Notes under the pieces: model-generated
The model's database searches: none
What the model was told of the DNA's origin: nothing
The model's input: the letters and a program-made list of their open reading frames with translations, nothing else
Shown here: positions 27,586-46,765 of the stretch, one piece after another
Layout: every line of letters starts with the position of its first letter
How positions within the stretch are numbered: position 1 is the first letter of the stretch
Made by a program: the position numbers and the translations under genes
Source: an uncultured Alphaproteobacteria bacterium
Lineage (GTDB): Bacteria > Pseudomonadota > Alphaproteobacteria > RF32 > CAG-239
Assembly: GCA_949297145.1 (NCBI GenBank)
Contig: CASFQO010000008.1
Location: 1-46,765 of the forward strand
DNA length: 46,765 bases
Direction: 5' to 3'

Positions 27586-28533
27586 ATGGAGCTCTTACAA
27601 TATAGTTTTTCAGACTTATATATAAATTCAAATAAAGATTTTTATATTTCGGATGAGAAATATGCCAATAGTTTAAAAAGAGTAGAGCCAAGTGATAAAG
27701 AAGAATTTTGTGAGCAACTTTTTTTAATAATGCATCAAAACAGCTCCTATTCAATGAATTATAAAGGTACTTTTTTCCGCGTAGAAAATGTACTAAGCGT
27801 CAATGGCGAGTTATACTGTTTAAGAAGAATGCCACTGACGATACCGAGCATACACAATTTAGGTTTTGATCATCGTTTTGTACAATATATGCTATCACTT
27901 TCATCTCAAAGCGGCTTAATAATTTGGGGCGGTGCAACAGGATCAGGAAAGACAACGTCGATATCAAGCTTATTAGCAGAATACTTAAACCTTGAAGGCG
28001 GATTTGCTTATACGATTGAAGATCCTGCAGAAATGCCTCTGGAAGGTGAATATCAATCATTTAATGGCTCTATTGGCTTTTGTAAACAAACGGAAGTCCA
28101 AAATGACAACTGGAGGGAGCCTTTGAAATCGGCTCTTCGCTCAAAACCACGATATATTTTAATCGGTGAAATAAGAACACCTGATGCAGCATGCGAATGC
28201 CTACGAGCTTCGATTTCTGGACATTTAGTATTAACGACAATTCATGCTAGCTCTATTACTGACGCATTAAGCTCCTTGGTAAAATATGCAAGTTTCAGTA
28301 TGAGTGAAAGCTCAGCTTATGACATCTTGTCTAGAGGTATTTTAGCTGTAGTTAAACAAGACTTGGTCGGAACAGAAAATCATAGAAAACCTAAAATTGA
28401 GACTCTATTTGCAAATCCGGATTTAAACAAAGGGTGTTCTGTACGTTCTATTATACGTAGTGGTAAACTAAATTTAGCAACGTCAATAGAAATGCAGGCA
28501 GCGAGATTAGCACAGTCCTTACCAATTTTTTAA
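27586..28533 (+). CDS. PilT/DotB-like secretion ATPase
   Basis: A 315-aa hexameric-type traffic ATPase. Walker A is GATGSGKT (residues 116-123), the Asp box is TIEDPAEMPLEG, Walker B contains YILIGEIR (Glu195), and the His box is SGHLVLTTIHA. Its size and lack of an N1 domain place it with PilT and DotB/TraJ rather than PilB/GspE, so it could retract a pilus or energise a type IVB-like transporter. It directly follows atpF with a good GGAGA site and converges on the pil cluster. Its function with that cluster is inferred from position. Confidence 0.85.
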   Translation: MELLQYSFSDLYINSNKDFYISDEKYANSLKRVEPSDKEEFCEQLFLIMHQNSSYSMNYKGTFFRVENVLSVNGELYCLRRMPLTIPSIHNLGFDHRFVQYMLSLSSQSGLIIWGGATGSGKTTSISSLLAEYLNLEGGFAYTIEDPAEMPLEGEYQSFNGSIGFCKQTEVQNDNWREPLKSALRSKPRYILIGEIRTPDAACECLRASISGHLVLTTIHASSITDALSSLVKYASFSMSESSAYDILSRGILAVVKQDLVGTENHRKPKIETLFANPDLNKGCSVRSIIRSGKLNLATSIEMQAARLAQSLPIF

Positions 28534-28551
28534 TGTTTCAAAAGAGTAGCA

Positions 28552-29145
28552 CTACTTTAGTGTCCATAGAACACTATTTTGCCCATTTTGGCATAAATCT
28601 TTGCTTGAATACTTTTGAACGGGAAGAGGATAATCCCCGCCCCATGTGTAAATATAATCGCCGGAAGAGTTATGGATTGTAATTTTTTCTAAGGCAAGTA
28701 AATTTTCTTCAGATAACTTTGCCTCAACGTATGAAATACATTGAGCCTTATTCAAATTAGGCAGGATAATATCAAATGTATCAGATCCAGGAGAAACTGG
28801 TTGTGCGTCAGCACCTTCTCCAAATAAAACTTTATAGTCACCAGGCAGAATAACATCGTTACCAATACGAAAATCAGAAGGAATAACATTATTCTCAGTT
28901 AGAACTTGAGTCGATAATTTCCAATAATCAGGTTTACTTTGATAATATGTTCTAATTTCATCTGCAATTGCAAAAATGGAAGTTATGTTTTGAGATAAAA
29001 TTCTCCGCGATGCCGAGCAAGAATAAAGAATAAACAAAACCAGCAAGCAAGGAAGAGCAAATTTAAGAACAATGATGTAATTATGACTTAAAAAATCTCT
29101 TCCTTGAGCAACATAAACGGACAGATTAGAAATATCAATGCTCAT
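28552..29145 (-). CDS. pilS: PilS-like type IVB pilin without a canonical prepilin motif
   Basis: The 197-aa protein has one hydrophobic segment (about residues 22-43) followed by a helix and a C-terminal domain resembling PilS: AIADEIRTYYQSKPDY, then IPSDF, a single Cys-x8-region (LNKAQCISYVEAKL), and a terminal second Cys with a Trp near the end (LCQNGQNSVLWTL). No Gly-[FWM]TLxE prepilin-peptidase site precedes the hydrophobic stretch, and the conserved Glu5 is absent. The ATG at 29145 has AAAGAGAA upstream; an ATG at 29214, 4 nt after pilR, is an alternative. It is last in the pil run, in the place of pilS in R64. Confidence 0.65.
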   Translation of the reverse strand: MSIDISNLSVYVAQGRDFLSHNYIIVLKFALPCLLVLFILYSCSASRRILSQNITSIFAIADEIRTYYQSKPDYWKLSTQVLTENNVIPSDFRIGNDVILPGDYKVLFGEGADAQPVSPGSDTFDIILPNLNKAQCISYVEAKLSEENLLALEKITIHNSSGDYIYTWGGDYPLPVQKYSSKDLCQNGQNSVLWTLK

Positions 29146-29218
29146 TAATTTCTCTTTATAAGAAGCAAAAATATTCATAATCTTTAAGCATAAGATTTTA
29201 CATTTATTTTGCATCGTA

Positions 29219-30340
29219 CTATCCCATAGCGCTGGTAATTTGGTCTTGCATTTCAAATACGCCAAATACGGCCCAAGCAATAATACCGGAAATTGCAAAC
29301 ATTGCAACCATGTTCAAAATAGAAGCTTTTTGTTCAACAGCCTCAGCAGATTCGTCAAGCCAATCATTAGCCAAACGATCAAGAGCCTCTTCAAAGTTGT
29401 CAAGTTCTGCATAAATTCTCAAATCGGCAACAATATCTTTATCTGGAAAATTTAATTTCGTTTTAGATAAGGCTTCACCAAGGTTGTCACCATTTTTAAT
29501 AAAGTCCATTGCTTTATCAATACGTTCCTGCAAGTAACGATTCGATTCTTTTCGTAACGAAGTGAGCGCTACAGAAATAGGCACCCCACCTTTAATTAAT
29601 GCTGATAAGGAAAGCAACCAAGTGATACCCATAAACATTTTATACAAAGACCAAGGCGGGCAATCATCAATAGCTTTTCTTGTCGGACCAGTCCAAACGC
29701 CAATTGTAGCATAAATAAGTAAGAATAATACGGGAAAAAAGGCAAAAGCAATTAACCAGTTTTTTTGAATCCACAATGAAACAGCAACCAAATCCTTAGC
29801 AGTGCCGGTCCAACGTGCATTAGGCGCCGCATCCATCATTGGTGGAACCATGTAAGCACCAATGGCGTAAATAACCAAAACGGACATAAGTAACAAGAAG
29901 GACGGATATGCAATAGCTCCGATAATAGGCTTTAACATTTTATCCGTACCTTCAGCAACACGAATCAAATTCATCAGAGCGCTTTCAAGGTCAGACATAT
30001 CACCAACCGAAAGCATCAATCGCTCACGACTAGGAGCCCATCCTTTCAAAGCATCTGAAAACGCATAACCATTCTGAAGAGCTTTACCCCAAGAAGCAAT
30101 AGCAATAGCCATTGGTTCGCTAGGATGCTTACCATTATCAGTAATACTGTCATACATAATATCCAGAGCATTCATTAATGAAAATCTGTTTCTGAGCAAA
30201 GATGCGAGTTTTTTATACACTTTAAGTCGAGCCTTACCGGCCATTCCGATTCTAAATTGTGCAAAAGATACTTCCAATGAGCCCAAAGACTTCATTGCTT
30301 TATTAAATGCACCTGCACTTGATTCATCTTTCTTTGCCAT
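29219..30340 (-). CDS. pilR: PilR-type inner-membrane platform protein
   Basis: A 373-aa GspF-domain protein with two cytoplasmic helical domains and three membrane segments (about residues 135-165, 188-215, 350-372). It forms the platform on which the PilQ ATPase works. The motifs GVPISVALTSLRKESNRYL and GDNLGEALSKT match the second GspF repeat. A strong AGGAGG site precedes the ATG, 9 nt behind pilQ. Confidence 0.9.
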   Translation of the reverse strand: MAKKDESSAGAFNKAMKSLGSLEVSFAQFRIGMAGKARLKVYKKLASLLRNRFSLMNALDIMYDSITDNGKHPSEPMAIAIASWGKALQNGYAFSDALKGWAPSRERLMLSVGDMSDLESALMNLIRVAEGTDKMLKPIIGAIAYPSFLLLMSVLVIYAIGAYMVPPMMDAAPNARWTGTAKDLVAVSLWIQKNWLIAFAFFPVLFLLIYATIGVWTGPTRKAIDDCPPWSLYKMFMGITWLLSLSALIKGGVPISVALTSLRKESNRYLQERIDKAMDFIKNGDNLGEALSKTKLNFPDKDIVADLRIYAELDNFEEALDRLANDWLDESAEAVEQKASILNMVAMFAISGIIAWAVFGVFEMQDQITSAMG

Positions 30341-30349
30341 AAAGACCTC

Positions 30350-32029
30350 CTAGTATACAGGACGTTGGTCAATCAAGCCGCACCAACGCTCAACTTCATC
30401 CATATCAATTTGCCCTTTAATCATTCTTTCGATAGCAGCATCCTTCAAGGGTCTTCCATTCAATTCACTAACCCAATAGTCAATAGCTTTAGCTGTTTCA
30501 TTATCTATCATTAAACGTAAGAACCGTGAATCCGGCAAGATAATCTCGTCAACAGCCATACGACCTTTAAAACCTTTATAACCACAAGCTTTACAACCAG
30601 GTCCGCTAACATAAACATTTTCAATGCCATAATCACCTAAAGCATTGCGTAATCTCTCAAACTCAGGAGAACCCTCTTTTGTTTTAATAGATTGTCTGCA
30701 ATTAGGACATAACTTTCTAAATAAACGTTGAGACACAAGACCCTTAACTAATTCTGGGTCATTAAGCAAATAAGGCTGAATACCCATATCACGTAAACGA
30801 GTAACAATAGCAGGAGCTGAGTTCGCGTGCAAAGTTGTCCAAACACCGTGACCTGACAAAGCTCCTTTAAAAGTCAATTCAGCAGTAGATAAAGAACGCG
30901 TTTCACCAACAAGAATAACGTCTGGGTCAGAACGAAGTGCCGCGGACAATGCTTTTGTAAATTGTTCATTTTTTTCTTCTTCTGTGTTAGCATTGGTAAC
31001 AGGCATTTGCCGCGCACCTGGAATAGGATACTCCGGAGGATCCTCCACAGTCAACAAGTTAATTTGATAATTCTTTTCTTGAAGCAACTTAATCATATTA
31101 CGTTGTAAAGTTGTTGACTTTCCAGAACCGGTAGGCCCTGCAACAACATTAAGCCCAACAGCCATACTTCTCATTTTATAGAAAAGATCTTCTTCATATT
31201 TACCAAGTCCTAAAGATCGTAAATCAGAACTACCTTCCGGGTTATCATCAGCGTACAAAAGACGCATAACCAGATATTGAGATCCGAACGCAATAGGATT
31301 AAACTGAAGACGAATAGCCAACACATTGTGTGGCAACATTAACTTACCTTTTGAACCTCGTAAAGGCGTTGAACCTAATTTTTGAGCGCCTTGGAATTCA
31401 TTTTGAGAATAGTTAGAGTCTGAAATATCTGCAGAGGCAAACACAGAACGAACAAAAGCTTCTCCCCACTCCCCACCATATTCATTCTGCTTAACCATAA
31501 TACCATTTTCACGGAAGAGAACAGTCGAAGATGAACCAACAATAATGTGAACGTCGGATACTTTTTTTTGAGATGCACGTTGAATAATATTAATAAAGTC
31601 AATCTGCATCTGCATATCTTCTGCTTCTTCTGCAGATACATCAACAGTACCAGCACCACGTTCAGCATACGCATAGATGGCGGCTATTTCGTTAAGTGTA
31701 ACATAGCGCGGTGCTTTAATTGGAATTTTTCTTCTCTTGACATTTGCTTCAAAGTTATAAACAGCACCATCAAATCTATTATCTTTTGAAACCAAATATG
31801 TACCATCAGAAAAAAGAGCCAACATACGCCGCGTTTCGTTGGTTATTGCAAAATCAGAACCATTTACAGTCAATAATTTGTTGTTGTTTGCAAACAATTG
31901 ATCAAACAGATTAACTTTTTTAGTCTGTCCAGCATTAGAATCATCTTCTTCAAAATTAGATTCCGGTTTTTTAGCCTCCGTCTGTGTTTGCTCTGCGACT
32001 TTATTTTCCTCTTGCTTTTCCTCAGCCAT
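30350..32029 (-). CDS. pilQ: PilQ-type pilus assembly ATPase
   Basis: A 559-aa GspE/PilB-superfamily ATPase that powers pilus extension. The N-terminal ~55 residues are acidic and low-complexity. Walker A is GPTGSGKS (residues 298-305), with an Asp box VEDPPEYPI, Walker B DVILVGETR, and a C-terminal zinc-binding pair of CxxC (LCPNC and GCKACGYKG). It is flanked by pilP and pilR as in the R64 pil operon. A second, shorter ATPase (27586-28533) lies across the convergent junction. Confidence 0.93.
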   Translation of the reverse strand: MAEEKQEENKVAEQTQTEAKKPESNFEEDDSNAGQTKKVNLFDQLFANNNKLLTVNGSDFAITNETRRMLALFSDGTYLVSKDNRFDGAVYNFEANVKRRKIPIKAPRYVTLNEIAAIYAYAERGAGTVDVSAEEAEDMQMQIDFINIIQRASQKKVSDVHIIVGSSSTVLFRENGIMVKQNEYGGEWGEAFVRSVFASADISDSNYSQNEFQGAQKLGSTPLRGSKGKLMLPHNVLAIRLQFNPIAFGSQYLVMRLLYADDNPEGSSDLRSLGLGKYEEDLFYKMRSMAVGLNVVAGPTGSGKSTTLQRNMIKLLQEKNYQINLLTVEDPPEYPIPGARQMPVTNANTEEEKNEQFTKALSAALRSDPDVILVGETRSLSTAELTFKGALSGHGVWTTLHANSAPAIVTRLRDMGIQPYLLNDPELVKGLVSQRLFRKLCPNCRQSIKTKEGSPEFERLRNALGDYGIENVYVSGPGCKACGYKGFKGRMAVDEIILPDSRFLRLMIDNETAKAIDYWVSELNGRPLKDAAIERMIKGQIDMDEVERWCGLIDQRPVY

Positions 32030-32066
32030 ATCGACACCTACAAATACTAATTAAAATAAATTAATA

Positions 32067-33596
32067 TTACTTTTTCTTTTCATCCGTAAGCCCGAGTGTT
32101 GGAACATAGCCATCTATACTTTTTCCGACATATAAATAGTCATCAGTCCCATCTCTACTAAATTTAGCATAATCAGAGCCTATTTCGCTGAGAACATGCC
32201 CAGTTGGAAGTGGCGAACCTACTTTAAGAGACATTGGTTGCCCATTAATATCTATAACATCAACAGACATATCTTTGGCACGACCGCTAATACCCAAAAT
32301 AGCATACTGCGAACTCAATTTTGCCGGAGCTTTTTCCTCCTCTTCAATATTTTCCACATCTTCAATTTGCGATGCCGCTGCAGCATTTGCGGCAGATATA
32401 GCTGCAGCAACAGAAGCATTCTTGCCTTTCAATTCCTCAATAGACTGAGATTGCAGATACAGATTGTTTTTAGCATTTTTTATAATTTGAGCGTCAGCTT
32501 CAACACGTTTGCGTAATTGCTCATTTCGTGCTTTTAGATTTTTAACAATTCTCTCAAAATTTGCACGTGCAGCCTCCGCTACCTGTATATTTTTAGCAGA
32601 TGCCTCTAACACTTTATTAATGCGTTCTTTAAATAAATCAATTAGTTCTTTTTTTTCACCTTCAAGAGCTGCAATCTGCGCATATAAACTTTCTTTTTCT
32701 TTGAGCCACTCTTGCTGATTAACAAGCATTTGATTCATATAGGCATTTAAAAGTTTTCTCTGTTTAAGAACTTCAAAAACCTGTTCTTTATCTAACAAGG
32801 CTTGTTTTTCTTGTAAAACTTGCGCTTCTATTTTTTTCTTTCTCTCTAAATCCTTTAATTTTTGTTCTTCTTTGAGGCGTTCTTGTTCATCAAGATTCTT
32901 CTGACGAATAGCCTTCTGAGCCTCAATTTCATTACGAATTTTCTCACGACGCAATTCTAGCGTCAATAAAGTTGTACTCTTTTCAATTTCAGACATCTGA
33001 GAAAACAAATCACTGTCCATTTGGGACAAAATACTATTGCCAAGCGATTCTACCGGATTCGCTTTGTATTGAATGTCTTTAGGTAAATCTGCATCACTCA
33101 TTGCTGATGAATTTGCAATAGAAGAGCCTGCAGCTGATTCATTTTGTTGTTGTGACGGCACGTTCAAAGATTTCATTTTCAGATCAAAATTAAAATCATC
33201 TTGAGGAGCTGCTGACGCTTGCTGCTCATGAGCCTGCGCAGAAACTTGAGCTGCCTGAGACTGTGTTGCTGCTAAATTATTCGGTGCATCCGCCGGCACT
33301 GCTGCCTTCTGAACTGAGGATACAACTTTCCCATTAGCACCTTTCTCCATACTGGGCTGCAGGGAAGCAGGAGCTGCTTTTTCATTTAAATTCGGAGCAA
33401 TCTTTGCCTGAGAGGGGGATACTAGTGCATTGGCATCTTTATTAACTGCTTGTGAAGTTGTACTCTGTGTAGGAACATTCAAAGCTAAGTTAGCTGCATT
33501 AGCAGATGCATCCGCCACGCTAACTGCATAAGCATTAGCAATGTTAATAACCATAGCAGATACAATTAATCCATAAATTCTACTTTTACTGAACAT
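32067..33596 (-). CDS. pilP: PilP-like pilus protein with long coiled coil
   Basis: The 509-aa protein begins with a signal peptide (SAMVINIANAYA, cleavage near residue 24), then an Ala/Gln/Ser-rich low-complexity region (to about 150), a long charged coiled coil (about 190-400), and a C-terminal domain of about 60 residues (AILGISGRAKDMSVDVID, GSPLPTGHVLSEIG) that resembles the PilP fold. Known PilP proteins are much shorter, so the coiled coil is an elaboration. The ATG at 33596 has GAGGGGAC upstream and overlaps the pilO stop by 11 nt; the longer frame from 33629 lacks a site. Confidence 0.75.
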   Translation of the reverse strand: MFSKSRIYGLIVSAMVINIANAYAVSVADASANAANLALNVPTQSTTSQAVNKDANALVSPSQAKIAPNLNEKAAPASLQPSMEKGANGKVVSSVQKAAVPADAPNNLAATQSQAAQVSAQAHEQQASAAPQDDFNFDLKMKSLNVPSQQQNESAAGSSIANSSAMSDADLPKDIQYKANPVESLGNSILSQMDSDLFSQMSEIEKSTTLLTLELRREKIRNEIEAQKAIRQKNLDEQERLKEEQKLKDLERKKKIEAQVLQEKQALLDKEQVFEVLKQRKLLNAYMNQMLVNQQEWLKEKESLYAQIAALEGEKKELIDLFKERINKVLEASAKNIQVAEAARANFERIVKNLKARNEQLRKRVEADAQIIKNAKNNLYLQSQSIEELKGKNASVAAAISAANAAAASQIEDVENIEEEEKAPAKLSSQYAILGISGRAKDMSVDVIDINGQPMSLKVGSPLPTGHVLSEIGSDYAKFSRDGTDDYLYVGKSIDGYVPTLGLTDEKKK

Positions 33597-34863
33597 AAAT
33601 TGTCCCCTCATAATTCCATACGCCACCATTATAACGTATATTATTAATCTTAAGTCCTGAAAATTTTGTTAACAAAGGCTTCCAAATTTCAGGATCATAT
33701 TTTGAATTAATTTTAAAATTCAAAGCATCATAAATCTTATTGCCTGCCTTTACCTTTCCATTGGTTAAAGAAATAGACATGTTAAGGGTCTGGAATAAAT
33801 CGTTTATCATATTTCGCAACTCTGACATTGTCTTATTAGGAATGGAATTAACCTTTTTGACAGATTGAAAAGGAATAGAAATTGTTACGGAAGTTCCGCG
33901 ATCGTCAACAGATTTATTTGTGAAAGACAAACCAGAATATGATAAAGCCATTTCAATCCATGATAATCTACCAAATTCTCTTCTCCAAGATGTAACTACA
34001 CCAGAAGCAGAACATGTTACGCCACCATTTTTCCATCCTGGAGTTGTGATTGCCACTAGAGACTGCATAGTAGTTCGACAATTATCTAATAGCCAACTAG
34101 TCTCAACCATAGATTCCCAAGGGGCCGGTACAATTTTTTCAACTTCTTTAACAACTTTCTTCTTAGCTCTTCTTGTAACAACTTTATTTTCTTGGGTCTT
34201 TGTTGCAAAAAAAGTATTTGCAATAAACATGACAAGCCAAGCCCCTGCTGCAATAGATAAAACAACAACAATGGCCAATTCTGCACCGCGTAATGCATTA
34301 ATTTTTTCTAATTGAACATCTAGACCCTGAGCAAAAACTTCTGAAATGTCTTTTTGCTCTGTGTCATCGATTCCCCATTCCTTGGGCGCAATTTTACGAG
34401 ACCAATCAGGCACGGAGAGCATAGACATAAATTGTTCGCGAGCATCTTCTTCTTTAACAAAAAGAACATCTCCGTCAGACAAAATAACATCATTTCTAAC
34501 GCACAAATACCAATATCCTGCATCAACCTTAAAGACTGCTAAAAGAGAAGATGCATCGCTCATTGCTGTTACTGCTGCAACAGCTGCAACATTCATTCCT
34601 TTTTTGAACCCCTGGGAAGAAACAGCTAAGCCCAGTTGAGGTGATTTACCATGTTTTACGCAAAATAAATCTGCTCCGACTAAAACATTTTCAGCAGCTT
34701 CTTTGGCATCCAAAAAAGGAGCATCAATATTTTGTAAACTTTCCCAAAAGATGCTGGCGGCATACTGCACCCCATCAACAGTAAAACTGGATGCCCACTC
34801 CTTACTGTTCTCTCGTGAAGAGTCATCTAAAAGCTCTAAATCTTTGTCATCTTCCTCAGCCAC
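33586..34863 (-). CDS. pilO: PilO-like pilus assembly protein
   Basis: A 425-aa protein with an N-terminal cytoplasmic domain of PilO (PilO2/PAP_PilO) type, containing WYLCVRNDVILSDGD, one membrane segment (about residues 194-218) and a C-terminal periplasmic domain. It probably links the platform to the secretin. I place the start at GTG 34863, six bases after AGGAG; the TTG at 34869 directly abuts that site. The Shine-Dalgarno overlaps the pilN stop codon, so translation is coupled. Confidence 0.85.
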   Translation of the reverse strand: MAEEDDKDLELLDDSSRENSKEWASSFTVDGVQYAASIFWESLQNIDAPFLDAKEAAENVLVGADLFCVKHGKSPQLGLAVSSQGFKKGMNVAAVAAVTAMSDASSLLAVFKVDAGYWYLCVRNDVILSDGDVLFVKEEDAREQFMSMLSVPDWSRKIAPKEWGIDDTEQKDISEVFAQGLDVQLEKINALRGAELAIVVVLSIAAGAWLVMFIANTFFATKTQENKVVTRRAKKKVVKEVEKIVPAPWESMVETSWLLDNCRTTMQSLVAITTPGWKNGGVTCSASGVVTSWRREFGRLSWIEMALSYSGLSFTNKSVDDRGTSVTISIPFQSVKKVNSIPNKTMSELRNMINDLFQTLNMSISLTNGKVKAGNKIYDALNFKINSKYDPEIWKPLLTKFSGLKINNIRYNGGVWNYEGTIYVQ

Positions 34864-34872
34864 TGTCAACTC

Positions 34873-36477
34873 CTAAAATTTCATGCGAGATTCCGGCATT
34901 AATGGGGATTCTAATACAACAGGGGTTAATAAAATAACAACAATACTACGTGTTTTTTCAACTTTTTGATGCCCACCCAATAAATTGTTATTAACAGCGC
35001 CTAAGCCCGCCTTATCGCTAGAAGTTTCAACACGTTCATAACCAGAAAGGACAAGCGTTTCTCCGGATTTCAAAGCAACTTCTTGTGAAAAACCTCTTTC
35101 CTCAATAATTGGGTTTTGAATATAACCGGATTCTTCTGAACTATCTAAGTTAACGTTTTCTAAGCTCAATAAATCAGACAAATTCAAACTAAACAACATC
35201 ATCAAACGACCATGGTCCATAATGCGTGGTAGAACATCCAATGTAAAACCTGTTTCAATCTCTTCGGTCTCAACAGTAACATCGTAACTAGCTTCACCGC
35301 CAACAGTACCGTTATTTGTCTTTGTGTATTCCGAAATGTAGTTTTGCGTCTTAACAACTTGGATAGGTGCTGGTTTATTGTTCATGGTCGTAACGGTACC
35401 ACTTGTTACAAGGGTTGTAACACCTTGAGTAGACAAAGCTTGAATAGCCGCATTAACCGTAACATCACCACTTAAAATCTTCATGGACATTCCGCTGTTA
35501 CCGTCGACAAGACCTGTCGGGCCGAAGTTATTATCTCCTAAAGTAATATTACCGCCAGAAGCAGTCCTATCCTTAAAGGCCGCATTTAAGTCAAAACCAA
35601 ACCCTCTTGACTCATCAACTTCAACTTGAAGAACTTTAACGCTAATAGCTACTTGACGAGACAATCTAATATTCTGCTCATTAACAAATTTTGATACTTT
35701 TTTAATTTCTGTAGGCGTTGCTGTAATTGTTAATGTACCATTCATCGGGTCTGTAACCAAGCTTGAACCAGCTCCTAGCATGGATTTTACTGCCGTAACA
35801 ATATTCGCCCACAAATCGATACTCGACACGCCGCTTGTAATACTTCCACCACCGGAAGAACTGCTAACGCTTGCCGTCATAGAAGGCTTTGTAGGGAGTG
35901 TATACAAGGTAAACGTTTTGGTCGTATATTTATAAATATAGATTTCCCCATTCTCATACTTCCACCAAACACCAAAATGGGAGCATACTTCATCTAACAA
36001 GCCACTCAGAGATCCTTTATAAGAAACGAGCATACGAGAAGTGTCTGACCACTTTGATCCGACTTTAGAAACTGTTGGGGCGTTTTTATCAGCAGCAGCC
36101 TTTGCCGCACCTTCCAATTGCGGTGCAAAACGAATTTTTATAGAAGTAATTTGGCTAATCATATTGCCGATTTCATACAAGGTAATCGGACGGTTGCTAA
36201 CCAATGTTACCCCATCAGCTGTCTCAAGATAATGAGGCAGTGGTTTGTCTCCTTCATATTCAATCTCACTGGTATCACCTAACCAAATGTCATCTTTAAT
36301 TCTGATAACATCGGTATCCGCTACTGTTTGAGGTGCTTTTGCATCTTCCTTCCGTTTAATGGTGGCATCAACATCTCTTTCTAACGCGGCATCATAATCT
36401 GTAGGCAGTGAACAAGAAGCTACGCCTAATAGTAAAAAAGTAGCAAACCCAAGTAAACAATTTTTATTAGTACGCAT
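34873..36477 (-). CDS. pilN: PilN-type outer-membrane secretin lipoprotein
   Basis: The 534-aa protein has a lipoprotein signal with Cys22 in GVASC, an N-terminal region, an N0/N1-like domain around residues 90-200, and a C-terminal secretin pore domain (LDVLPRIMDHGRLMMLFSLN, KSGETLVLSGYE, IVVILLTPVVL). It would form the outer-membrane channel for the pilus. The ATG at 36477 is used, with GGAG upstream, and overlaps the upstream stop by 11 nt. Its size and order match PilN of IncI plasmids and TcpC/BfpB relatives. Confidence 0.92.
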   Translation of the reverse strand: MRTNKNCLLGFATFLLLGVASCSLPTDYDAALERDVDATIKRKEDAKAPQTVADTDVIRIKDDIWLGDTSEIEYEGDKPLPHYLETADGVTLVSNRPITLYEIGNMISQITSIKIRFAPQLEGAAKAAADKNAPTVSKVGSKWSDTSRMLVSYKGSLSGLLDEVCSHFGVWWKYENGEIYIYKYTTKTFTLYTLPTKPSMTASVSSSSGGGSITSGVSSIDLWANIVTAVKSMLGAGSSLVTDPMNGTLTITATPTEIKKVSKFVNEQNIRLSRQVAISVKVLQVEVDESRGFGFDLNAAFKDRTASGGNITLGDNNFGPTGLVDGNSGMSMKILSGDVTVNAAIQALSTQGVTTLVTSGTVTTMNNKPAPIQVVKTQNYISEYTKTNNGTVGGEASYDVTVETEEIETGFTLDVLPRIMDHGRLMMLFSLNLSDLLSLENVNLDSSEESGYIQNPIIEERGFSQEVALKSGETLVLSGYERVETSSDKAGLGAVNNNLLGGHQKVEKTRSIVVILLTPVVLESPLMPESRMKF

Positions 36478-37561: not shown

Positions 37562-37665
37562 CTTTTGACCTATCTTTAAATCCAACCTAACACTACATTA
37601 AATATTAAAAAATAATAAATCAAGCGTAACGCTTTATTTATAAAACGTTTTGTTGATTAATCCTA

Positions 37666-39072: not shown

Positions 39073-39201
39073 AAATAAAAATACATCCCAACTCTAAAAA
39101 CTTAGCTTAAATTTTAACCATATTTTAAACATTAAATAAACTCATAAGCAAGCATATTTACAAACTAATAACAACAAAATGACGAAGAATATCAGATAAA
39201 A

Positions 39202-39241
39202 TAACAAAAAGTAACAAGAGTCCTGTATGAAGTTTTTGTTA
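39202..39241. promoter_or_regulatory. Inverted repeat TAACAAAAA-N22-TTTTTGTTA upstream of first pilin
   Basis: Arms at 39202-39210 and 39233-39241 are perfectly complementary with a 22-bp spacer. The right arm is 83 bp before the -10 element of the pilin promoter. The same repeat, with an 11-bp spacer, lies upstream of the second pilin (39852-39880), and flanking bases (GTTACAGA) also match. A shared regulator site is plausible. The remainder of 39073-39362 is AT-rich without other recognisable features. Confidence 0.6.
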
Positions 39242-39301
39242 CAGAAATAAAAATTAAATAAAAACAATATGATAGTGTAAGGTTGATGTGAGTCAAAAGA
39301 C

Positions 39302-39330
39302 TTGAATTTTTTTTAAATTTGCTGTAAAGT
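39302..39330 (+). promoter_or_regulatory. Sigma70-like promoter of first VirB2-like pilin
   Basis: TTGAAT at 39302-39307 and TAAAGT at 39325-39330 are separated by 17 bp, 32 nt before the start codon. The pilin gene has a strong AGGAG site. Confidence 0.6.
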
Positions 39331-39362
39331 AATAAATGTATAATGAATTTAGGAGAACTGAT

Positions 39363-39713
39363 ATGAAAAATTTAAAGAAGATGTTCGTACTCTGCTCTCT
39401 GGCACTTGTATTTACAGTGTTGCTCGCAGATGCATCATTCGCTGAAGACAGTGTTATGCAGACAGGTATGAAGAAAGCCTTACAATTGTTTGTACATATT
39501 AAAACAATTATTTTCGTTGTAGGTGCTTTCGGTTTGATCGGTATTGCATTCCAAGCTATTTTTGGAAAAGTAAAATGGACATGGTTTGCTGGTTTGGCAG
39601 TAGGTTTGGCTATTTTGGCTGCAGCCGGTGCTATCGTAAACTATGCAACAGGTGGCAACATCGACTCAACACAGACTGGTGATACATTTAGTAACTCTGG
39701 TACTGGTGTATAA
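39363..39713 (+). CDS. virB2: VirB2/TrbC-like pilin 1
   Basis: A 116-aa protein with a signal peptide (cleavage likely after ASFA) and two membrane helices separated by a short polar turn (FGKVKWTWF), the layout of VirB2/TrbC pilin subunits. The C-terminus is Thr/Ser/Gly-rich. The ATG at 39363 has AGGAG upstream; a longer reading from 39336 does not. It has its own promoter and a terminator directly after it, so it is probably expressed as a single-gene, high-level transcript. Two related genes follow. Confidence 0.8.
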   Translation: MKNLKKMFVLCSLALVFTVLLADASFAEDSVMQTGMKKALQLFVHIKTIIFVVGAFGLIGIAFQAIFGKVKWTWFAGLAVGLAILAAAGAIVNYATGGNIDSTQTGDTFSNSGTGV

Positions 39714-39757: not shown

Positions 39758-39851
39758 ATGCTCTTTTCTTTTTATAAATAAACAAATTTCAAAAAGGTGC
39801 TGTGCAAAAAAATAAAAAAGGATATATTGGAAATATCTAAAATAAGACGAA

Positions 39852-39880
39852 TAACAAAAAAGAGTGTGAAATTTTTGTTA
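39852..39880. promoter_or_regulatory. Inverted repeat TAACAAAAA-N11-TTTTTGTTA upstream of second pilin
   Basis: Arms at 39852-39860 and 39872-39880, spacer 11 bp. The right arm lies 82 bp before the -10 of the second pilin promoter, nearly the same distance as at the first pilin. A direct repeat AAAACATATAGA(T/G)GG also occurs at 39900-39914 and 39970-39984. Confidence 0.6.
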
Positions 39881-39959
39881 CAGAGAAATAAATGTATTAA
39901 AAACATATAGATGGATAAAAAAATATAATTTTTTTTTTCTGGATATTTTTAACAAATTG

Positions 39960-39968
39960 TGATATACT
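39960..39968 (+). promoter_or_regulatory. Extended -10 promoter of second pilin operon
   Basis: TGA-TATACT at 39960-39968 fits an extended -10 (TGn plus TATAAT-like). No good -35 is seen, so an activator may be needed; it is 24 nt before the pilin 2 start codon. Confidence 0.5.
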
Positions 39969-39992
39969 TAAAACATATAGAGGGAGGTTTAG

Positions 39993-40319
39993 ATGATGCA
40001 AAGAGATAATAAAATTTTCTACGCATTGACGATTCTTATATTGCTGGCTCCTTCAGCAGCAAATGCAGCAGGAGCATTTGGCTCATTGATTGCATCTGGA
40101 CAAGAGATTTTTACAGGTTTACGCGAAATTATTTATCCAGCATCCGCTGTAGGAATTATCGCAGTATGTATTGGTGGTTTTTTTGGAAACATCAACTGGA
40201 AATGGTTGACCGCAATCATATTAGGGTTAGTCGTAATTAGTTTATGCGCAGGATTTGTTGCGATGTTCGCTCCAAATGGGGCGTCATCAATAGCCAGTGA
40301 TATTGCTTTAGGAACATAG
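39993..40319 (+). CDS. virB2: VirB2/TrbC-like pilin 2
   Basis: A 108-aa protein with a signal peptide (AANAAG region, residues to about 24) and two membrane helices around a FGNINWKWL turn, parallel to pilin 1 (FGKVKWTWF). It starts with ATGATG behind a strong GGGAGG. It is the first gene of an operon with pilin 3, 11 nt downstream, and probably virB3 and virB4. The three pilins are diverged paralogues; which one forms the pilus shaft is not known. Confidence 0.75.
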   Translation: MMQRDNKIFYALTILILLAPSAANAAGAFGSLIASGQEIFTGLREIIYPASAVGIIAVCIGGFFGNINWKWLTAIILGLVVISLCAGFVAMFAPNGASSIASDIALGT

Positions 40320-40330
40320 GAGAATTTAAG

Positions 40331-40690
40331 ATGAAAAAAAATAGTATTTTTTTCTGTGTCATATTTGCAGTGGTGATGTTGTTGATGTGTGAAGATGCAA
40401 TGGCGGCAGGAGGTGTTTTTGCATCGTTACGAGGAAAAACAATATCTTTTGCATCTCAATTACGAGTATTTGCATATGCAATTTCTTGCTTTGGAATAGT
40501 AATGTTCACATTTCTGGCAATTAGTGGTAAAATTAATTTTAAACACTTAGGTTACATATTTATTAGTTTATTTATGTTATCAGCAACAGGTGCTCTAATT
40601 GATTATTTTACGGGAAGCCACGCAAAATTAAAAACAGAATTTCATGATACATACATGAATACAGTGTCACATAGCAGTTTGGGAAGCTAG
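40331..40690 (+). CDS. virB2: VirB2/TrbC-like pilin 3
   Basis: A 119-aa protein with a signal peptide ending AMAAG and two membrane helices around SGKINFKHL, matching the turn of pilins 1 and 2. The C-terminal tail (HAKLKTEFHDTYMNTVSHSS) is longer and more charged than in the others. A GGAGAA site precedes the ATG. It may be a minor pilin or a variant subunit. Confidence 0.72.
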   Translation: MKKNSIFFCVIFAVVMLLMCEDAMAAGGVFASLRGKTISFASQLRVFAYAISCFGIVMFTFLAISGKINFKHLGYIFISLFMLSATGALIDYFTGSHAKLKTEFHDTYMNTVSHSSLGS

Positions 40691-40701
40691 AAAATCAAAA
40701 G

Positions 40702-40723
40702 ATAACTATAACAAAATAGTTAT
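40702..40723. repeat. Short inverted repeat between pilin 3 and virB3
   Basis: ATAACTAT and ATAGTTAT form an 8-bp stem with a 6-nt loop, 11 nt after the pilin 3 stop. The following sequence has only a short T run, so it may be an attenuator or mRNA-processing hairpin rather than a full terminator. Confidence 0.45.
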
Positions 40724-40786
40724 AATTTAACAAATTTTAAGATTTTCAGGCTTAATATGCTTTATATAGACAGAGGATTTTAAGCC

Positions 40787-41077
40787 ATGAAAGACATAAT
40801 TTTAAAAGCAGTAGCCAATCCGCCTAAATTATTTTGGGGGCCGGTTTTGCCGACAGCATTAAATGCAGGACTACAGATTCCTTTTATGTTTATGGCCATA
40901 GGAATGGGCGATGTGAATCCTTTAGTCTTTATAGTGAGTATTGTAACCGGGCATTTAATAGTTGTCGCACTTGGAGCAAAAGATCCGCATCTATCCGGAA
41001 TGATTCAAGCATTTGGGCAAACGAATATAGTGCCGCAGAATTTATACAAAGTGAAAGGGCATAAATTTGAACCTTGA
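40787..41077 (+). CDS. virB3: VirB3-like inner-membrane protein
   Basis: A 96-aa protein with a hydrophobic N-terminal half (two helices, about residues 20-65) and a C-terminal polar tail, of VirB3/TrbD size. The segment VANPPKLFWGPVLPTALN near the N-terminus and the ALGAKDPHL stretch are typical of the family. It overlaps virB4 by 11 nt. VirB3 associates with VirB4 to help pilus formation. Confidence 0.85.
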   Translation: MKDIILKAVANPPKLFWGPVLPTALNAGLQIPFMFMAIGMGDVNPLVFIVSIVTGHLIVVALGAKDPHLSGMIQAFGQTNIVPQNLYKVKGHKFEP

Positions 41078-43520
41078 TTTTGATTTCTACACGTTATTTA
41101 TGGCAGGGCTGCAGAGTGCAGATGCTTTTGTGGCAACTTTTGGTATTATATCGGCAGCGGCAATAGCGGTATCATTAGTTTCTAAAATAGGAACGTGGGT
41201 TTTGCCTCAACCAAGTGAATCACGTGTAGCAGACTTTTTGCCTTTTGACAGCTTATTATCGGATGGATCAACTTTAAGATGCAGTAATGGCACTTATGTA
41301 AGAGTATTTAAAGTTGAGGGTGTCGATTTAACATCAGCCAGAGAAGAAACGATTTTATCTATGTTTGAAGCAAGAAAATCGTGGTTAGATAATATGGCAG
41401 ATTTACAAGTAACCTGCCGCGTCATAACTATTCGAGAACGTGTGCCAATGGAACAAAATAAAGCAGATTTTGGAAATAAGTGGCTCAAAATTGTTGATGA
41501 CACGTGGCGTGAAAACTTAAGCCGGGTATATAAAAACGATCACTACATAATTCTATCAATAGAAGACCGTAAAGATGCTGTAAAAGACTTAAACTATGCC
41601 TCACAATCAGTAATGGCAAACTTGAATGACTACGGAATAAAAGTTATGTACGAAGATGATGACAGTTCCGCAGACATGAGTCCGGTGTATCCCTTTGTCA
41701 GAATATTAAACCCAATAAGTAAACCTTTGCCAAAAGTAAGAGGGGCCCAGGGGTTTCAACTCAAAGAAATGTTGAGCTCTGATGGCATTCACTTTACGGG
41801 AGAAGAGGGGATAATAAAATTCTTTTCGGGCGGTAAAGAAAAGTTTGCATTAACAATGGGCATAAGAAACTCCGGAGACTATATGGATGAAAGTATGATA
41901 TCATCCTTATTGGCTATAGACTGTGAGTTAACAGTTTTACACCACATCCATCCATTATTTAAGCCAAAAGCAAGAATGATTCTGGTTCAACAACAAAAAA
42001 TGGCAGAAGTAACAAGTTTTTCGTCAGATGTTGTTGCTCAATATAGTGAAGCACTTGCAGCAATTGAAGATAGTGATGCTGACCATCAATCTCTTGTAGA
42101 GTACTCTATGAGCTTTATACTAAAAGGGGATTCTATAAAAGAGATAGAGTTTGGGGAAAGCGAAGTGCAAAGAATATGTCGTTTATTCAGTGTAACACCT
42201 GTTAGGGAAAATTGGATTGCACAAGCAACATTTTTTAACCAATTTCCGGGATATGATACATGTGGCAGAACGTATTTTTACCTGTCAAGAATTGTGTCAC
42301 TAGCTGTGTCATTTGAACAATTGTCAACAGGTTTGCCGCGCAGTGACTGGGGTGAAGGCGCAATTACAGTATTCAGAACAATGAGCGGTTCTCCATATAG
42401 ATTCCAATTTCATATATCGGCAGCAGAATCAGCCGTTGCGCACTGCTGTATAGTTGGACCGACCGGACAAGGTAAAACAACATTACTGACCTTCTTGGCA
42501 GGACAAGCCATGCGTCATGGAGATTTAAAAGTATACTTCTTTGATAGACACCGTGGTGCAGAAATTTTCACCCACATGGTTAAAGGGGCATATGTTGGTT
42601 TTAGTGGTGATAGAAAGAATGTATCGTTAAATCCGTTTGATTCAAGAGATACAATGAGCAACCGTGCATTTTTACGTAATTGGCTAAAAGCGATTACCAT
42701 GGCAAATGATGCTTTATCAGAAAGAGAAGCTGCGCGAGCTGTCACCACAGCATTTGATTATTTGCGTCCGGAAGAAAGAGTGCTAAAAAATCTATATAAA
42801 AGCTGTTTTTCACCAACAGGAACGATGCGTCGTGAACTCTACAGATGGGTAAATCCGGATCAATACGGAAATATATTTAATGCAGAGCATGATAGTTTGG
42901 ATTTAAGCTCTAATAGATTTGTAGCTTTTGATTTTACAGAAATATTCGACGATGATATTTTAGCAGCAGCATCAATTAGCTATATTATGCACAGGATTCA
43001 ATCAGAAAGTACCGAAACAGGTGCCCCAGCATTAATTATGATTGATGAAACAGCGCCGATGTTAAAACATGAAATGTTTAGAGACAACTTCATCAAAGGT
43101 CTACAAGAAGGACGTAAAAAACGTCAGGCTTACCTTTGTGCATTTCAACAGCCAAATATTGTAGATACATTAGGAGTAGGAGATGCAGTCAGAGGCCAGT
43201 GTAAAACAATGATATTCTTCAGAAATACCCAAGCAACACCGGAATCATATGCAAAATGGAATTTGACAGACAGTGAATACGATTTTATCAGCGGTAAATC
43301 ATATAGAGATTGCCCATATGCAATACTCTTGAAGCGTCCGGACGCGGGAGAAAACGGAGAAGGTGAGTCAGTGATACTGGATGTAAATTTAAGCGGATTA
43401 GGCCCATATCTGAAACTATACAATTCTGGTATTAAGAATGTCTTGCTAGTAGACAGCCTTGTAAAAGAGTTTGGAGAAGATGGATTCGTAACCAAGTATC
43501 TCAATGGAGTAGGGGCATAA
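41067..43520 (+). CDS. virB4: VirB4-type secretion ATPase
   Basis: An 817-aa protein of the VirB4/TraC family, the core ATPase of type IV secretion. Walker A is GPTGQGKT (residues 464-471), Walker B ends in IDE (Asp660 and Glu661), and DRHRGAEIF and QEGRKKR segments follow the family. The start is TTG at 41067 with AAAGGG 6 nt upstream, inside the virB3 end. An N-terminal membrane segment is seen (about residues 8-50). Its presence with VirB2-like pilins and VirB3 identifies the plus-strand cluster as VirB-type. Confidence 0.93.
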   Translation: MNLDFDFYTLFMAGLQSADAFVATFGIISAAAIAVSLVSKIGTWVLPQPSESRVADFLPFDSLLSDGSTLRCSNGTYVRVFKVEGVDLTSAREETILSMFEARKSWLDNMADLQVTCRVITIRERVPMEQNKADFGNKWLKIVDDTWRENLSRVYKNDHYIILSIEDRKDAVKDLNYASQSVMANLNDYGIKVMYEDDDSSADMSPVYPFVRILNPISKPLPKVRGAQGFQLKEMLSSDGIHFTGEEGIIKFFSGGKEKFALTMGIRNSGDYMDESMISSLLAIDCELTVLHHIHPLFKPKARMILVQQQKMAEVTSFSSDVVAQYSEALAAIEDSDADHQSLVEYSMSFILKGDSIKEIEFGESEVQRICRLFSVTPVRENWIAQATFFNQFPGYDTCGRTYFYLSRIVSLAVSFEQLSTGLPRSDWGEGAITVFRTMSGSPYRFQFHISAAESAVAHCCIVGPTGQGKTTLLTFLAGQAMRHGDLKVYFFDRHRGAEIFTHMVKGAYVGFSGDRKNVSLNPFDSRDTMSNRAFLRNWLKAITMANDALSEREAARAVTTAFDYLRPEERVLKNLYKSCFSPTGTMRRELYRWVNPDQYGNIFNAEHDSLDLSSNRFVAFDFTEIFDDDILAAASISYIMHRIQSESTETGAPALIMIDETAPMLKHEMFRDNFIKGLQEGRKKRQAYLCAFQQPNIVDTLGVGDAVRGQCKTMIFFRNTQATPESYAKWNLTDSEYDFISGKSYRDCPYAILLKRPDAGENGEGESVILDVNLSGLGPYLKLYNSGIKNVLLVDSLVKEFGEDGFVTKYLNGVGA

Positions 43521-43525
43521 TTTTA

Positions 43526-43554
43526 TTGACAAAAATAAGAAAAAGTGCTAAAAT
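43526..43554 (+). promoter_or_regulatory. Sigma70 promoter before first coiled-coil secreted gene
   Basis: A perfect TTGACA at 43526-43531 and TAAAAT at 43549-43554 are separated by 17 bp, between virB4 and the next gene. This is the best promoter match in the window and would allow the downstream genes to be expressed independently of virB4. Confidence 0.8.
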
Positions 43555-43587
43555 CACATCATTAAATATTATTTAAGAGGGGGAATT

Positions 43588-44748: not shown

Positions 44749-44813
44749 TTAACGTATTATCAAGAAGTTTAAGATAATTAGTAAGTAATTAAGATTATTA
44801 GGGAGGACGCGAT

Positions 44814-46765
44814 ATGATAAAAAGGATAATATCCATCACAGCAAAAGGAGCAATGATAGGTTGTCTTTGCTTAACTCTCAGCGTTCGCCCTGCGCAAGCC
44901 TTTATCTGGCCTGTTATAGATTTAACAGAAATTGTTTCCTTTGTGAATAGCATCACAACTGGTTTAAATCAAATAACCAATGCGAAAAGCCAATTAGACA
45001 ACATAAACAACACAATCAAAGTAATAGGTGATCAAGTCTCGTCGATTAGAAAGTACGCAGCGGATTTAAAAGGTACAATAACCAACATAAAAGATAATGT
45101 AACAAAAATTACCCAAAATGTAACGGAAACAGCCCAAAACTTAGATGATATAGCAGCAGATGTTGATGAAACAATAAATCAAGGTTTAAATACAGAAAAA
45201 GAAAATGCAGCAAGTACAACAGAAATCATAGAAAGTCAGGTCGATTCGGGGGCGACAGAAGAAGAAGTACAAAACACATTAGATGTGGCCAAGCAAGAAT
45301 CAGAAGCTAACAAAGAAGAAGTTAATAAAGTTTTTGATGAGGCTGAAGCAACAATTAACGATTCTATAGATAAAGCACAAACAGCCTTAGATATGCTTAT
45401 GAACAGCATAAATGAAAATGGCGACTTGGCGGCAGAAGATAGAAATAAATTAAACGAAGAAGCAGCCGCAATAAAAGAAGATTTTGATGAGATAAATGAA
45501 ACGGCAGCCAGTATCATAAGCTCAGCAAGAGAAGAGTTTAACACAATGTACAGTGAGCAAATAGCATCTGCCTTTGATACATATAGCCAAGCAATAAGTG
45601 ACTACTACGCAGGTAATATAGACAGAGCAGGCTTAACAGAAGCAGGAGAAGCTTTTAAAAATAGCATATCCGAACTAGATGCAGGAATAGATGCAAATGC
45701 AATAAACGACCTAGTATCGTCAGCTCAAGACATTGCAGAAAAAGTAGATACATTTAAAGAAAATGTAATGAACAGTATAAGTAACTCAAAAGGTTATTCA
45801 GATGGCAGTGAAGAAGCTGCTAATACAAATGCATTAAAAAAGACATATGCATTTAATTACGTTGCCATAAACGAAAATATCCTATTAAAAGGAATATATG
45901 CAACCGATGCGGATAAAAGTTTTTTATTGCCTAAAGAATTAGCTTGTGATGGGCTGGAGGTTGCGGATGTAGAAGACGATCCGAGTCATTTACGAGAATG
46001 CGTTATAAAAGCCAAGGCAGAAGTAGAGTTGTATCCAGATATCTATAAAGAAAGTTTATATAAAGATTTTCAAAAAGACGGTATATACAAACATCTAAGA
46101 GAAGATTATAGCATTGCTAATATTGTCAGTGTGAGTAAATCTAAGCAATTTTCATCGACATGGGGAGCATTGGAACCTAATAATGATAGCAATAAAGGAA
46201 CGCTATATGTCCTACGAAAAACATTAAAAGATGTAGATAACACGCGGGCAGGATATCAACTGATGGGGATGACAGACATGGAATCTCCTAAACTTTGGAG
46301 TGAAATTCGTCGTGTTGATGCCTTAAAGAGAGCCAAAGGAGTTATTCAAGATTTTGAAAGCGGTATAAACCTATATTTAGACGGAAGAGATTCTGATTTT
46401 GTAGAAGCAACTAACAGAAATTGGGGAACAATACAATCAGATGACAGAGATGGAAACGAAAGTGAGGCTGTCATCGGTAAGGCCATTTTTTCAAATGTTA
46501 TTATGTATAAATGTGGACTAAGAGCAAAAGATATTTCTGTATCAGAAAAGAAAAAGACAGACATGACTGCAATTGAAGAAAAGGAAAAAAATATAGCAGA
46601 TTGCTTATATAAATACGCTCTAGATGCAAGTAGGGGCTCTGAGCAAGAAAAGCAAGCCGGAAAAGAAAGGCAAAGAAAGGCCTATAATGATTCTGCTTTT
46701 AATAATTTGACTTTAGCTGTAGTAAACAATTATAAATCCAGCTTAGATTACATAGATCCAGATAA
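44814..46765 (+). CDS. Secreted coiled-coil protein in VirB5/TrbJ position, 2 (partial, runs off window)
   Basis: An open frame of 650 codons without a stop that continues past the end of the window. It begins with a signal peptide (cleavage after RPAQA, residue about 29) followed by FIWPVIDLTE and GDQVSSIRKYAADLKGTITN, closely parallel to the preceding gene, then a helical region (residues about 80-330) also like its paralogue. Beyond that lies an extra domain of at least 300 residues (about 345-650) with four or more Cys, not present in the first protein. I do not recognise it. A strong GGGAGGA site precedes the ATG at 44814. Confidence 0.75.
   Translation, partial: MIKRIISITAKGAMIGCLCLTLSVRPAQAFIWPVIDLTEIVSFVNSITTGLNQITNAKSQLDNINNTIKVIGDQVSSIRKYAADLKGTITNIKDNVTKITQNVTETAQNLDDIAADVDETINQGLNTEKENAASTTEIIESQVDSGATEEEVQNTLDVAKQESEANKEEVNKVFDEAEATINDSIDKAQTALDMLMNSINENGDLAAEDRNKLNEEAAAIKEDFDEINETAASIISSAREEFNTMYSEQIASAFDTYSQAISDYYAGNIDRAGLTEAGEAFKNSISELDAGIDANAINDLVSSAQDIAEKVDTFKENVMNSISNSKGYSDGSEEAANTNALKKTYAFNYVAINENILLKGIYATDADKSFLLPKELACDGLEVADVEDDPSHLRECVIKAKAEVELYPDIYKESLYKDFQKDGIYKHLREDYSIANIVSVSKSKQFSSTWGALEPNNDSNKGTLYVLRKTLKDVDNTRAGYQLMGMTDMESPKLWSEIRRVDALKRAKGVIQDFESGINLYLDGRDSDFVEATNRNWGTIQSDDRDGNESEAVIGKAIFSNVIMYKCGLRAKDISVSEKKKTDMTAIEEKEKNIADCLYKYALDASRGSEQEKQAGKERQRKAYNDSAFNNLTLAVVNNYKSSLDYIDPD

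Follow-up and report, generated by a model that had tools for sequence, protein, structure and literature searches.

A divergently linked type IVb pilus run and VirB-type secretion cluster, with a VirB10 divided into two β-flower repeat chains, in an alphaproteobacterium of the order RF32

The type IVb pili of R64 (the thin pilus), TCP and BFP are defined by a TcpQ lipoprotein, a PilN-type secretin, PilO, PilQ and PilR, in the R64 order, together with a Bundlin-like gene. In type IV secretion systems (T4SSs), VirB10 is held to be one subunit that spans from the cytoplasm to the outer membrane and relays the ATPase signal to the gate. The rvh T4SS of Rickettsiales is, in the parts of its published descriptions cited here, a P-type system that is chromosomal, vertically kept and encoded in islets (PMC2653234, PMC9352585), for which an ancestral bacteria-killing or anti-protist role with later host use has been proposed (PMC9352585). 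The cag T4SS of Helicobacter has, according to the passages cited, a VirB10 orthologue, CagY, that is enlarged by a long repeat region (PMC2581425, PMC5954226). Here we describe a window of 46,765 bases from an uncultured alphaproteobacterium of the order RF32 (bases 1-46765 of the 116222-base contig C8, CASFQO010000008.1; assembly GCA_949297145.1, 1.41 Mb in 16 contigs, 87% complete), in which pilus genes on the minus strand (28552-39072) stand divergently from VirB genes on the plus strand (Table 1). A sequence-only reading of this window had pointed out the two clusters, and the observation is confirmed: every gene that it named was found where it had been placed, most of them with family models over cut-off.

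We consider the best explanation, at a probability of about three in four, to be two separate, chromosomally inherited surface machines with a shared head, namely a TCP/R64/BFP-like type IVb pilus and an rvh-like, protein-translocating T4SS with a giant two-chain VirB10. What carries this view is the content and order of the genes, the co-occurrence of the halves, their broadly matching descent and a divergent linkage that is conserved; function and substrates we infer. The relatives compared were a set of 58 genomes, 35 of them from the same order, and a draw of 338 genomes from the class, in which PilN was scored at E<=1e-20 and VirB4 at E<=1e-100 (genomes, loci and contigs are given as G, L and C numbers; loci L009 and L114-L118 served only as scan and BLAST targets). 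Samples for 6 of the 16 named relative loci came from ruminant gut or rumen, going by record titles.

The pairing of the pilus and VirB halves is real and old. Among the 35 same-order genomes, VirB4 was found in 32, with one match per genome except in G007, where the gene lies in two contig pieces, and PilN in 31, all of which have both; 23 of these 31 carry the divergent pair on a single contig, as does G055 of another family. In the class draw, PilN was present in 17/19 genomes with a VirB4 of at least 49% identity, in 2/13 with a VirB4 of 32-41% identity and in 15/306 without a VirB4 match. Taking both sets together, 44 genomes have PilN and a close VirB4, and in 30 of them, from five families (f1, f2, f23, f73 and f39), the two halves are divergent neighbours on one contig. 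In three more, a contig break seems to fall at the junction (G029 and G071 as read, G006 from coordinates), five have the halves apart, as weighed below, and six are left with no assigned arrangement (G007, G019, G026, G033, G036 and G082). These counts are not independent, because the genomes are kin. The PilN and VirB4 trees are broadly alike and differ where G055 and G184 join. Linkage is clustered on the VirB4 tree, where 4 changes account for it and shuffling gives 8.1 on average; this test labels G071 as linked, despite a junction that falls at two contig ends. The expectation of the sequence-only reading that the halves co-occur in related genomes is thereby upheld.

A close VirB4 also occurs with no PilN match in G277 (83% complete) and in G121 (98% complete), the latter with a VirB4 at 53% identity and nothing that matches PilN at E<=1e-20 or T2SSF at E<=0.01. 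The T2SSF search gave no match in 3 of 27 genomes, namely G121, G164 and G184 (pilus run cut by a contig end). Orphan secretins, that is PilN and TcpQ lacking the rest of the pilus, were considered for G100, G216 and G307 and rejected, as each has a T2SSF protein elsewhere. Our literature search found no paper on a type IVb pilus with VirB4 in Alphaproteobacteria, nor on RF32 with type IV secretion. In another family, locus L095 (G053, contig C240, 656-12162) holds a pilus/type II-like run of secretin-like (589 aa), GspE-like (596 aa) and GspF-like (407 aa) proteins directly after VirB8-VirB9 and facing VirD4-VirB11-VirB10; by its predicted genes this is a second pilus-T4SS neighbourhood, of different make.

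The VirB half continues well past the window, whose end falls inside the secretion cluster. Looking beyond base 46765 for VirB8-11, as had been proposed, we found two VirB8 genes, VirB7, VirB9, VirB10 and VirB11 on the same contig, with VirD4 and a VirB6 array on other contigs. The region's secretion system, judged by its homologues of VirB3/4, VirB6-11 and VirD4, is a P-type (VirB/VirD4) T4SS. The VirB7 lipoprotein is present in 4/4 genomes examined, and its motif LK.[ST]PCAC[IL] is common to 58- and 68-aa proteins just 5' of VirB8 in plasmid T4SSs of Microvirga and Erythrobacter; the VirB half therefore owns a VirB7 as well as VirB9 and VirB10. VirD4, on contig C12, was found at E<=1e-20 in 33/35 same-order genomes, one of these being a 29% match. 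Next to VirD4 lie two alike-looking membrane proteins (433 and 170 aa) and a 536-aa protein (L008:12818-16284), perhaps a coupling-protein partner set. The VirB6 set consists of six tandem open reading frames (ORFs) at C5:1798-10439 (430, 466, 452, 179, 320 and 1035 aa), each with several hydrophobic segments, two of which are perhaps one split gene. A first search for VirB6 gave no match at E<=1e-3; TrbL matches at E<=1 occur in 22/24 same-order genomes, several relatives are over the cut-off, and G022 has homologues of the array in almost the same order. Downstream of the array, its fourth large ORF (C5:15373-16689, or L113:1374-2690) encodes a 438-aa lipoprotein-like protein that looks secretin-like by eye and has no Pfam match.

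Inside the window, the plus-strand genes of the sequence-only reading mostly hold: VirB2 a and b and VirB4 score over Pfam cut-offs and two secreted helical proteins follow, whereas the third VirB2 falls below its cut-off and VirB3, with no family match in the Pfam and NCBIfam scans, is assigned by position and relatives. VirB4 matches TIGR00929 at E=2e-111, although its 373.5 bits lie below the cut-off of 643, and its Protein Data Bank (PDB) match is TrwK (E=2e-46). For the 232-aa protein at the VirB5 position, the structure model has a pLDDT of 54 and finds no PDB match at E<=0.001, and an HMM of its family gave E values of 0.025 and 0.35 against two plasmid VirB5-position proteins in a 13-sequence set, which are not usable. 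Compared with locus L049, whose VirB4 is 98% identical, PilN (96%) and PilO (95%) are nearly unchanged, and less alike are the head protein of the pilus run and the first secreted protein (59%), PilP (76%), TcpQ (79%) and the next three secreted proteins (78-89%), a pattern that, taken from identities and not from a test of selection, fits exposed or partner-facing parts.

The most surprising part of the system is its divided VirB10, which lies outside the coordinates covered by the sequence-only reading. The inner chain (2306 aa) has an N-terminal membrane helix and 24 β-flower stretches in the 2075 residues scanned, and the outer chain (1451 aa) has 9 such stretches plus TrbI; Bflower_2 scores are 534.9 and 174.8 bits, and 405.4 bits for the single 2831-aa VirB10 of G055, from another family, which has an N-terminal helix, 20 β-flower stretches and TrbI (cut-off 38; β-flower families PF21784/PF21785). 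VirB10 is split into two genes with the same ends in all four family genomes read (G000, G010, G022 and G028): the inner chain closes with VA[QK]NRRN, and the outer chain opens with a signal-peptide-like stretch and then F.GDLIGKVIPDG. From this predicted export signal, the outer chain would be exported separately. The last VirB6 (1035 aa) also ends in a β-flower-like stretch (L093:10299-10433) that resembles the VirB10 repeats, at 22.7 bits and so below the cut-off of 38. The β-flower fold has been described on the basis of predicted models and without a known function (PMC10584680), and the precedent for a repeat-filled VirB10, CagY, has α-helical repeats and is treated as one protein (PMC2581425), unlike the β-flower repeats in two chains found in this family. 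No paper joining VirB10 with the β-flower was found in our literature search.

In its organization the T4SS resembles rvh, as far as the cited descriptions go (PMC2653234, PMC9352585), in being P-type, chromosomal, vertically kept and scattered in islets, in its multiplied VirB6 (five in Rickettsia, six tandem ORFs here, subject to the possible split gene) and in having two VirB8 genes with one small ORF between them, although these lie on the same strand here and on opposite strands in Rickettsia. It differs from those descriptions in the one VirB4 found in this 87% complete genome, where rvh has two, in the one VirB9 seen in the cluster, where rvh has duplicates, in the giant, divided VirB10 and, perhaps, in five secreted helical proteins that stand in the place of VirB5, a component that rvh lacks. 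Several VirB2 genes are present, as in the rvh layout. The VirB/MobA-MobL plasmids of Microvirga sp. VF16 and Erythrobacter aureus share with it VirB2-3-4, a secreted protein, VirB8-9-10-11-D4 and the VirB7 motif, but have an ordinary VirB10 (about 590 and 530 aa), a MobA/MobL gene, one annotated VirB8 and no pilus operon annotated in their 30-kb stretches.

On the pilus side, the R64/TCP-type order with PilN secretin, TcpQ, PilO, PilQ and PilR is present by family models, all five over Pfam cut-offs, as the sequence-only reading had held; PilP, for which Pfam and NCBIfam give no informative match, stands by position and relatives, and the supposed PilS lacks a prepilin motif. PilN scores 260 bits against the NCBIfam PilN model TIGR02520, slightly below its cut-off of 287.65. 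That reading's gene list needs amending in two places, as the first gene, at 27586-28533, encodes a PilT/PilU/DotB-like ATPase and the pilus run is headed by an OmpA-like gene at 37666-39072. The C-terminal domain of this head protein was modelled by AlphaFold2 with a pLDDT of 85, and Foldseek gives the OprF C-terminal domain and MotB as its best matches (E 4e-6), so the head gene probably encodes a predicted peptidoglycan anchor. The OmpA-like head gene, the PilT-like ATPase alongside and a pilin-like gene that lacks the prepilin motif set the run apart from R64, TCP and BFP, as does the fact that nothing in it was recognised as PilT transglycosylase, PilU or PilV; its partner is VirB-type, unlike the IncI transfer system. 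The ATPase matches PilU (3e-19), DotB (5e-19) and PilT (1e-18) in the PDB about equally, and we rejected it as proof of a Dot/Icm (IVB) system, from which the region also differs in that no DotC, DotD, DotG or DotH family was found among the cluster proteins scanned.

The prepilin cleavage motif is absent by eye from the PilS-like protein in this genome and in six others of the family (7/7). Because of this, and because a prepilin-motif scan of our genome's own stretches (C8 1-114000, C5 1-16000 and C12 48000-67000, then the rest of C8 and C5) found no proper pilin, the true pilin is probably encoded elsewhere, or the PilS-like protein has probably turned into an assembly part. The same scan recovers proper pilins in L076 (G028), where the pilin adjoins the PilS-like gene, and in L065 (G055), L112 (G071) and L074 (G197) of other families.

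The shared intergenic control region that had been proposed between the two halves proved real. It holds TTAACCATATTTTAA 42 bases before the pilus head gene, and a TTAA-N7-TTAA box, which we take to be a CtrA site, lies 36-48 bases from the head gene in 14/14 regions of close relatives (VirB4 82-99% identical), in identical form in 12. Thirteen of these regions were aligned and the 895-base region of L056 was scanned for the box; three of the 16 named loci, L048, L058 and L063, are left out of the count as they miss a border of the region. Only two such sites occur in the window, including this one, and mononucleotide shuffling expects 0.09 in the control region. The box sits on the pilus side, with nothing that ties it to the T4SS. 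The pilin gene of Caulobacter is activated by CtrA, according to the passage cited (PMC11264516), and CtrA may, through this putative box, time the pilus side.

Table 1. Features of the pilus and secretion clusters. Families were assigned by Pfam and NCBIfam scores in bits against curated cut-offs, and PDB matches by E value. Positions prefixed C8 are on the contig beyond the window
Feature	Position	Strand	Basis or remark
PilT/PilU/DotB-like ATPase (candidate retraction motor)	27586..28533	+	T2SSE 104.8 bits; TIGR01420 pilT_fam 109.6, far below cut-off 319
PilS/Bundlin-like membrane protein, start codon uncertain	28552..29307	-	Bundlin 25.8 bits, cut-off 22.3
PilR, inner-membrane platform	29219..30340	-	T2SSF 95.6 bits, cut-off 25.2
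PilQ, assembly ATPase	30350..32029	-	T2SSE 209.9 bits, cut-off 24.9
PilP-position protein	32067..33629	-	between PilO and PilQ; homologues in same place in family genomes
PilO	33586..34869	-	PF06864 52.4 bits, cut-off 26.7
PilN family secretin lipoprotein	34873..36501	-	Secretin 62.9 bits, cut-off 27.5
TcpQ-domain lipoprotein	36467..37585	-	PF10671 62.3 bits, cut-off 27
Head gene of pilus run, C-terminal OmpA/MotB-like (peptidoglycan-binding type) domain	37666..39072	-	C-terminal block conserved, 23 sequences
Shared divergent control region	39073..39335		263 bases; 13 close-relative regions aligned, 14th scanned
CtrA-like box TTAA-N7-TTAA (putative)	39114..39128		42 bases 5' of pilus head gene
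VirB2-like pilin a	39336..39713	+	TrbC 40.4 bits, cut-off 27.9
VirB2-like pilin b	39993..40319	+	TrbC 30.9 bits, cut-off 27.9
VirB2-like pilin c	40331..40690	+	TrbC 19.5 bits, below cut-off 27.9
VirB3	40787..41077	+	position before VirB4; homologues there in relatives
VirB4 ATPase	41067..43520	+	PF03135 40.7 bits, cut-off 21
Secreted helical protein 1, VirB5 position, 386 aa	43588..44748	+	variable; similar to protein 2
Secreted helical protein 2, 727 aa	44814..46765 (to C8:46997)	+	runs past window end
Secreted proteins, 232, 452 and 1801 aa	C8, after 46997		same contig
VirB8a	C8:54470-55228		
VirB7, 63-aa lipoprotein	C8:55372-55563		between the two VirB8
VirB8b	C8:55575-56333		
VirB9	C8:56353-58311		CagX plus SPOR; CagX over cut-off
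VirB10 part 1, 2306 aa	C8:58308-65228		
VirB10 part 2, 1451 aa	C8:65230-69585		TrbI over cut-off
VirB11	C8:69655-70635		

The region is flanked by an ATP-synthase operon on one side and, after VirB11, by yihA, yidC and more housekeeping genes including dnaN and dnaA on the other (gene names are our reading of the sequences). The suggestion that this may be a chromosomal dual-appendage region is borne out by these flanks and by the co-occurring halves, with no sign of a conjugative role. Further along C8 (L004), two near-identical genes for 260-aa lipoprotein-like proteins lie in tandem at 88257-89895, and an ORF at 90507-91340, about 20 kb from VirB11, has by eye the look of a peptidoglycan hydrolase or endolysin. 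In a relative (L081 of G071), an apparent 4580-aa ORF from 6259 is ribosomal-protein-S1-like by eye and enters masked N, and is an artefact.

The sequence-only reading had raised the possibility that VirB substrates leave through the PilN secretin in place of a VirB outer-membrane complex. The conserved adjacency of the halves would suit this, as would the G053 run, led by a secretin-like protein directly after VirB8-VirB9, and the secretin-like 438-aa ORF downstream of our genome's VirB6 array. However, the T4SS has its own VirB7, VirB9 and VirB10, and G121 has VirB4 with no PilN or T2SSF match, which makes such a service by PilN very unlikely; in addition, PilN stands in one run with TcpQ, PilO, PilP, PilQ and PilR, PilN finds no match at E<=1e-20 in 11 of the 13 genomes whose VirB4 is more distant (32-41%), and both halves are kept but apart in G021, G031, G228, G318 and G307. 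Two outcomes had been named beforehand as telling against the earlier proposal, and the one, an outer-membrane set of VirB7/9/10 belonging to the VirB half itself, was found, while the other, halves that do not co-occur in other genomes, was not. We also think it improbable that the T4SS is the conjugation machine of an integrated element or a degraded plasmid. In the two nearest plasmid systems examined, with VirB4 at 36% and 33%, a MobA/MobL gene precedes VirB2, which favours such an origin, but no mobilization gene lies between the VirB2 genes and the pilus here, the flanks are housekeeping genes, the T4SS components sit in separate islets, and VirB4 is kept in 32/35 same-order genomes, as a single match save in G007. 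The sequence-only reading saw no relaxase or coupling protein; PF03432, the one relaxase family searched in genomes, is absent from 24/24 same-order genomes, and a VirD4 is present on C12. Neither plasmid's MobA/MobL protein had a match among the proteins compared from our genome's own stretches.

A weightier rival, which we rate at somewhat under an even chance, is that the linkage has no functional meaning and that two unrelated ancestral operons are still neighbours in a slowly rearranging chromosome. All linked genomes belong to one VirB4 clade with broadly congruent trees, the five genomes that separate the halves have lost neither, and the surroundings of the cluster in G105 and its relatives include homologues of our genome's genes at 22267 and 23078 as well as ATP-synthase genes; with some neighbour genes common to families, part of the linkage may be due to slow rearrangement. 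On the other hand, the immediate outer neighbours differ: G000 and G010 have atp genes at the pilus side and yihA/yidC at the VirB11 side, G105 has other atp genes directly after the VirB5-position genes, and in G055 neither neighbour set was matched. No VirB8-11 was found in the stretch read past VirB4 in G105, G310 and G218, and the pilus is still beside VirB4 there. PilN is also commoner with a close VirB4 (17/19) than where VirB4 has no match (15/306), though this is confounded by kinship. As for the divided VirB10, an assembly or sequencing artefact would be conceivable for long repeats in many-contig draft assemblies, but the identical break, conserved ends and new signal-peptide-like start in 4/4 family genomes read make it highly improbable, and the continuous chain of G055 indicates that such repeats can assemble intact.

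Several points weigh against two cooperating machines of the kind that we favour. The own stretches scanned, which make up about a tenth of the genome, yielded no proper major pilin, our genome's VirB6 matches lie below the TrbL cut-off (best E 0.0017), and the five secreted proteins at the VirB5 position, candidate VirB5 proteins at most, have no relevant family match. PF03432, which none of the 24 same-order genomes has, was the only relaxase family searched there, PF03389 (MobA/MobL) not being searched. The separation of the halves in five genomes means that linkage is not needed, and the neighbours shared with G105 and its relatives count on the same side. Finally, of 8 further regions, whose limits were set by neighbouring ORFs and some of which contain small ORFs, 7 lack the CtrA-like box and only G022 has one, at 122 bases; G010 is not a new region among these, as L060 is identical to part of it.

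If two separate surface machines are indeed encoded here, the pilus would extend, attach to a target cell, be it host, protist or bacterium, and perhaps retract through the PilT-like ATPase, pulling the target in, to judge from the families involved. The T4SS would then move VirD4-chosen proteins, not DNA, into that cell; protein is preferred over DNA transfer because no PF03432 relaxase was found in the 24 same-order genomes searched for this one family and because the system is conserved in the chromosome. The giant β-flower-repeat VirB10 would bridge the envelope as two chains, the one contributing inner-membrane repeats and the other exported repeats plus TrbI, and with VirB10 in two chains the bridge would need closing by non-covalent contacts. 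More tentatively, and as an idea that we hold to be less likely than not, the β-flower arrays of the inner chain and of the exported TrbI chain may dock as a long, perhaps adjustable strut, such that the T4SS bridges both membranes with no continuous VirB10, in a machine cooperating with the type IVb pilus inherited alongside it, which would draw in the target cell ahead of protein delivery.

The naturally divided VirB10 makes the one-subunit model testable: a working machine would mean that VirB10 need not be covalently continuous. Here the backbone of a T4SS is filled with the β-flower fold, which also gives a weaker match where one VirB6 ends, and a docking strut, if true, would be a possible first role for the fold. 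That a grappling-type pilus is kept together with a VirB system in these small-genome alphaproteobacteria suggests an unstudied contact-dependent interaction.

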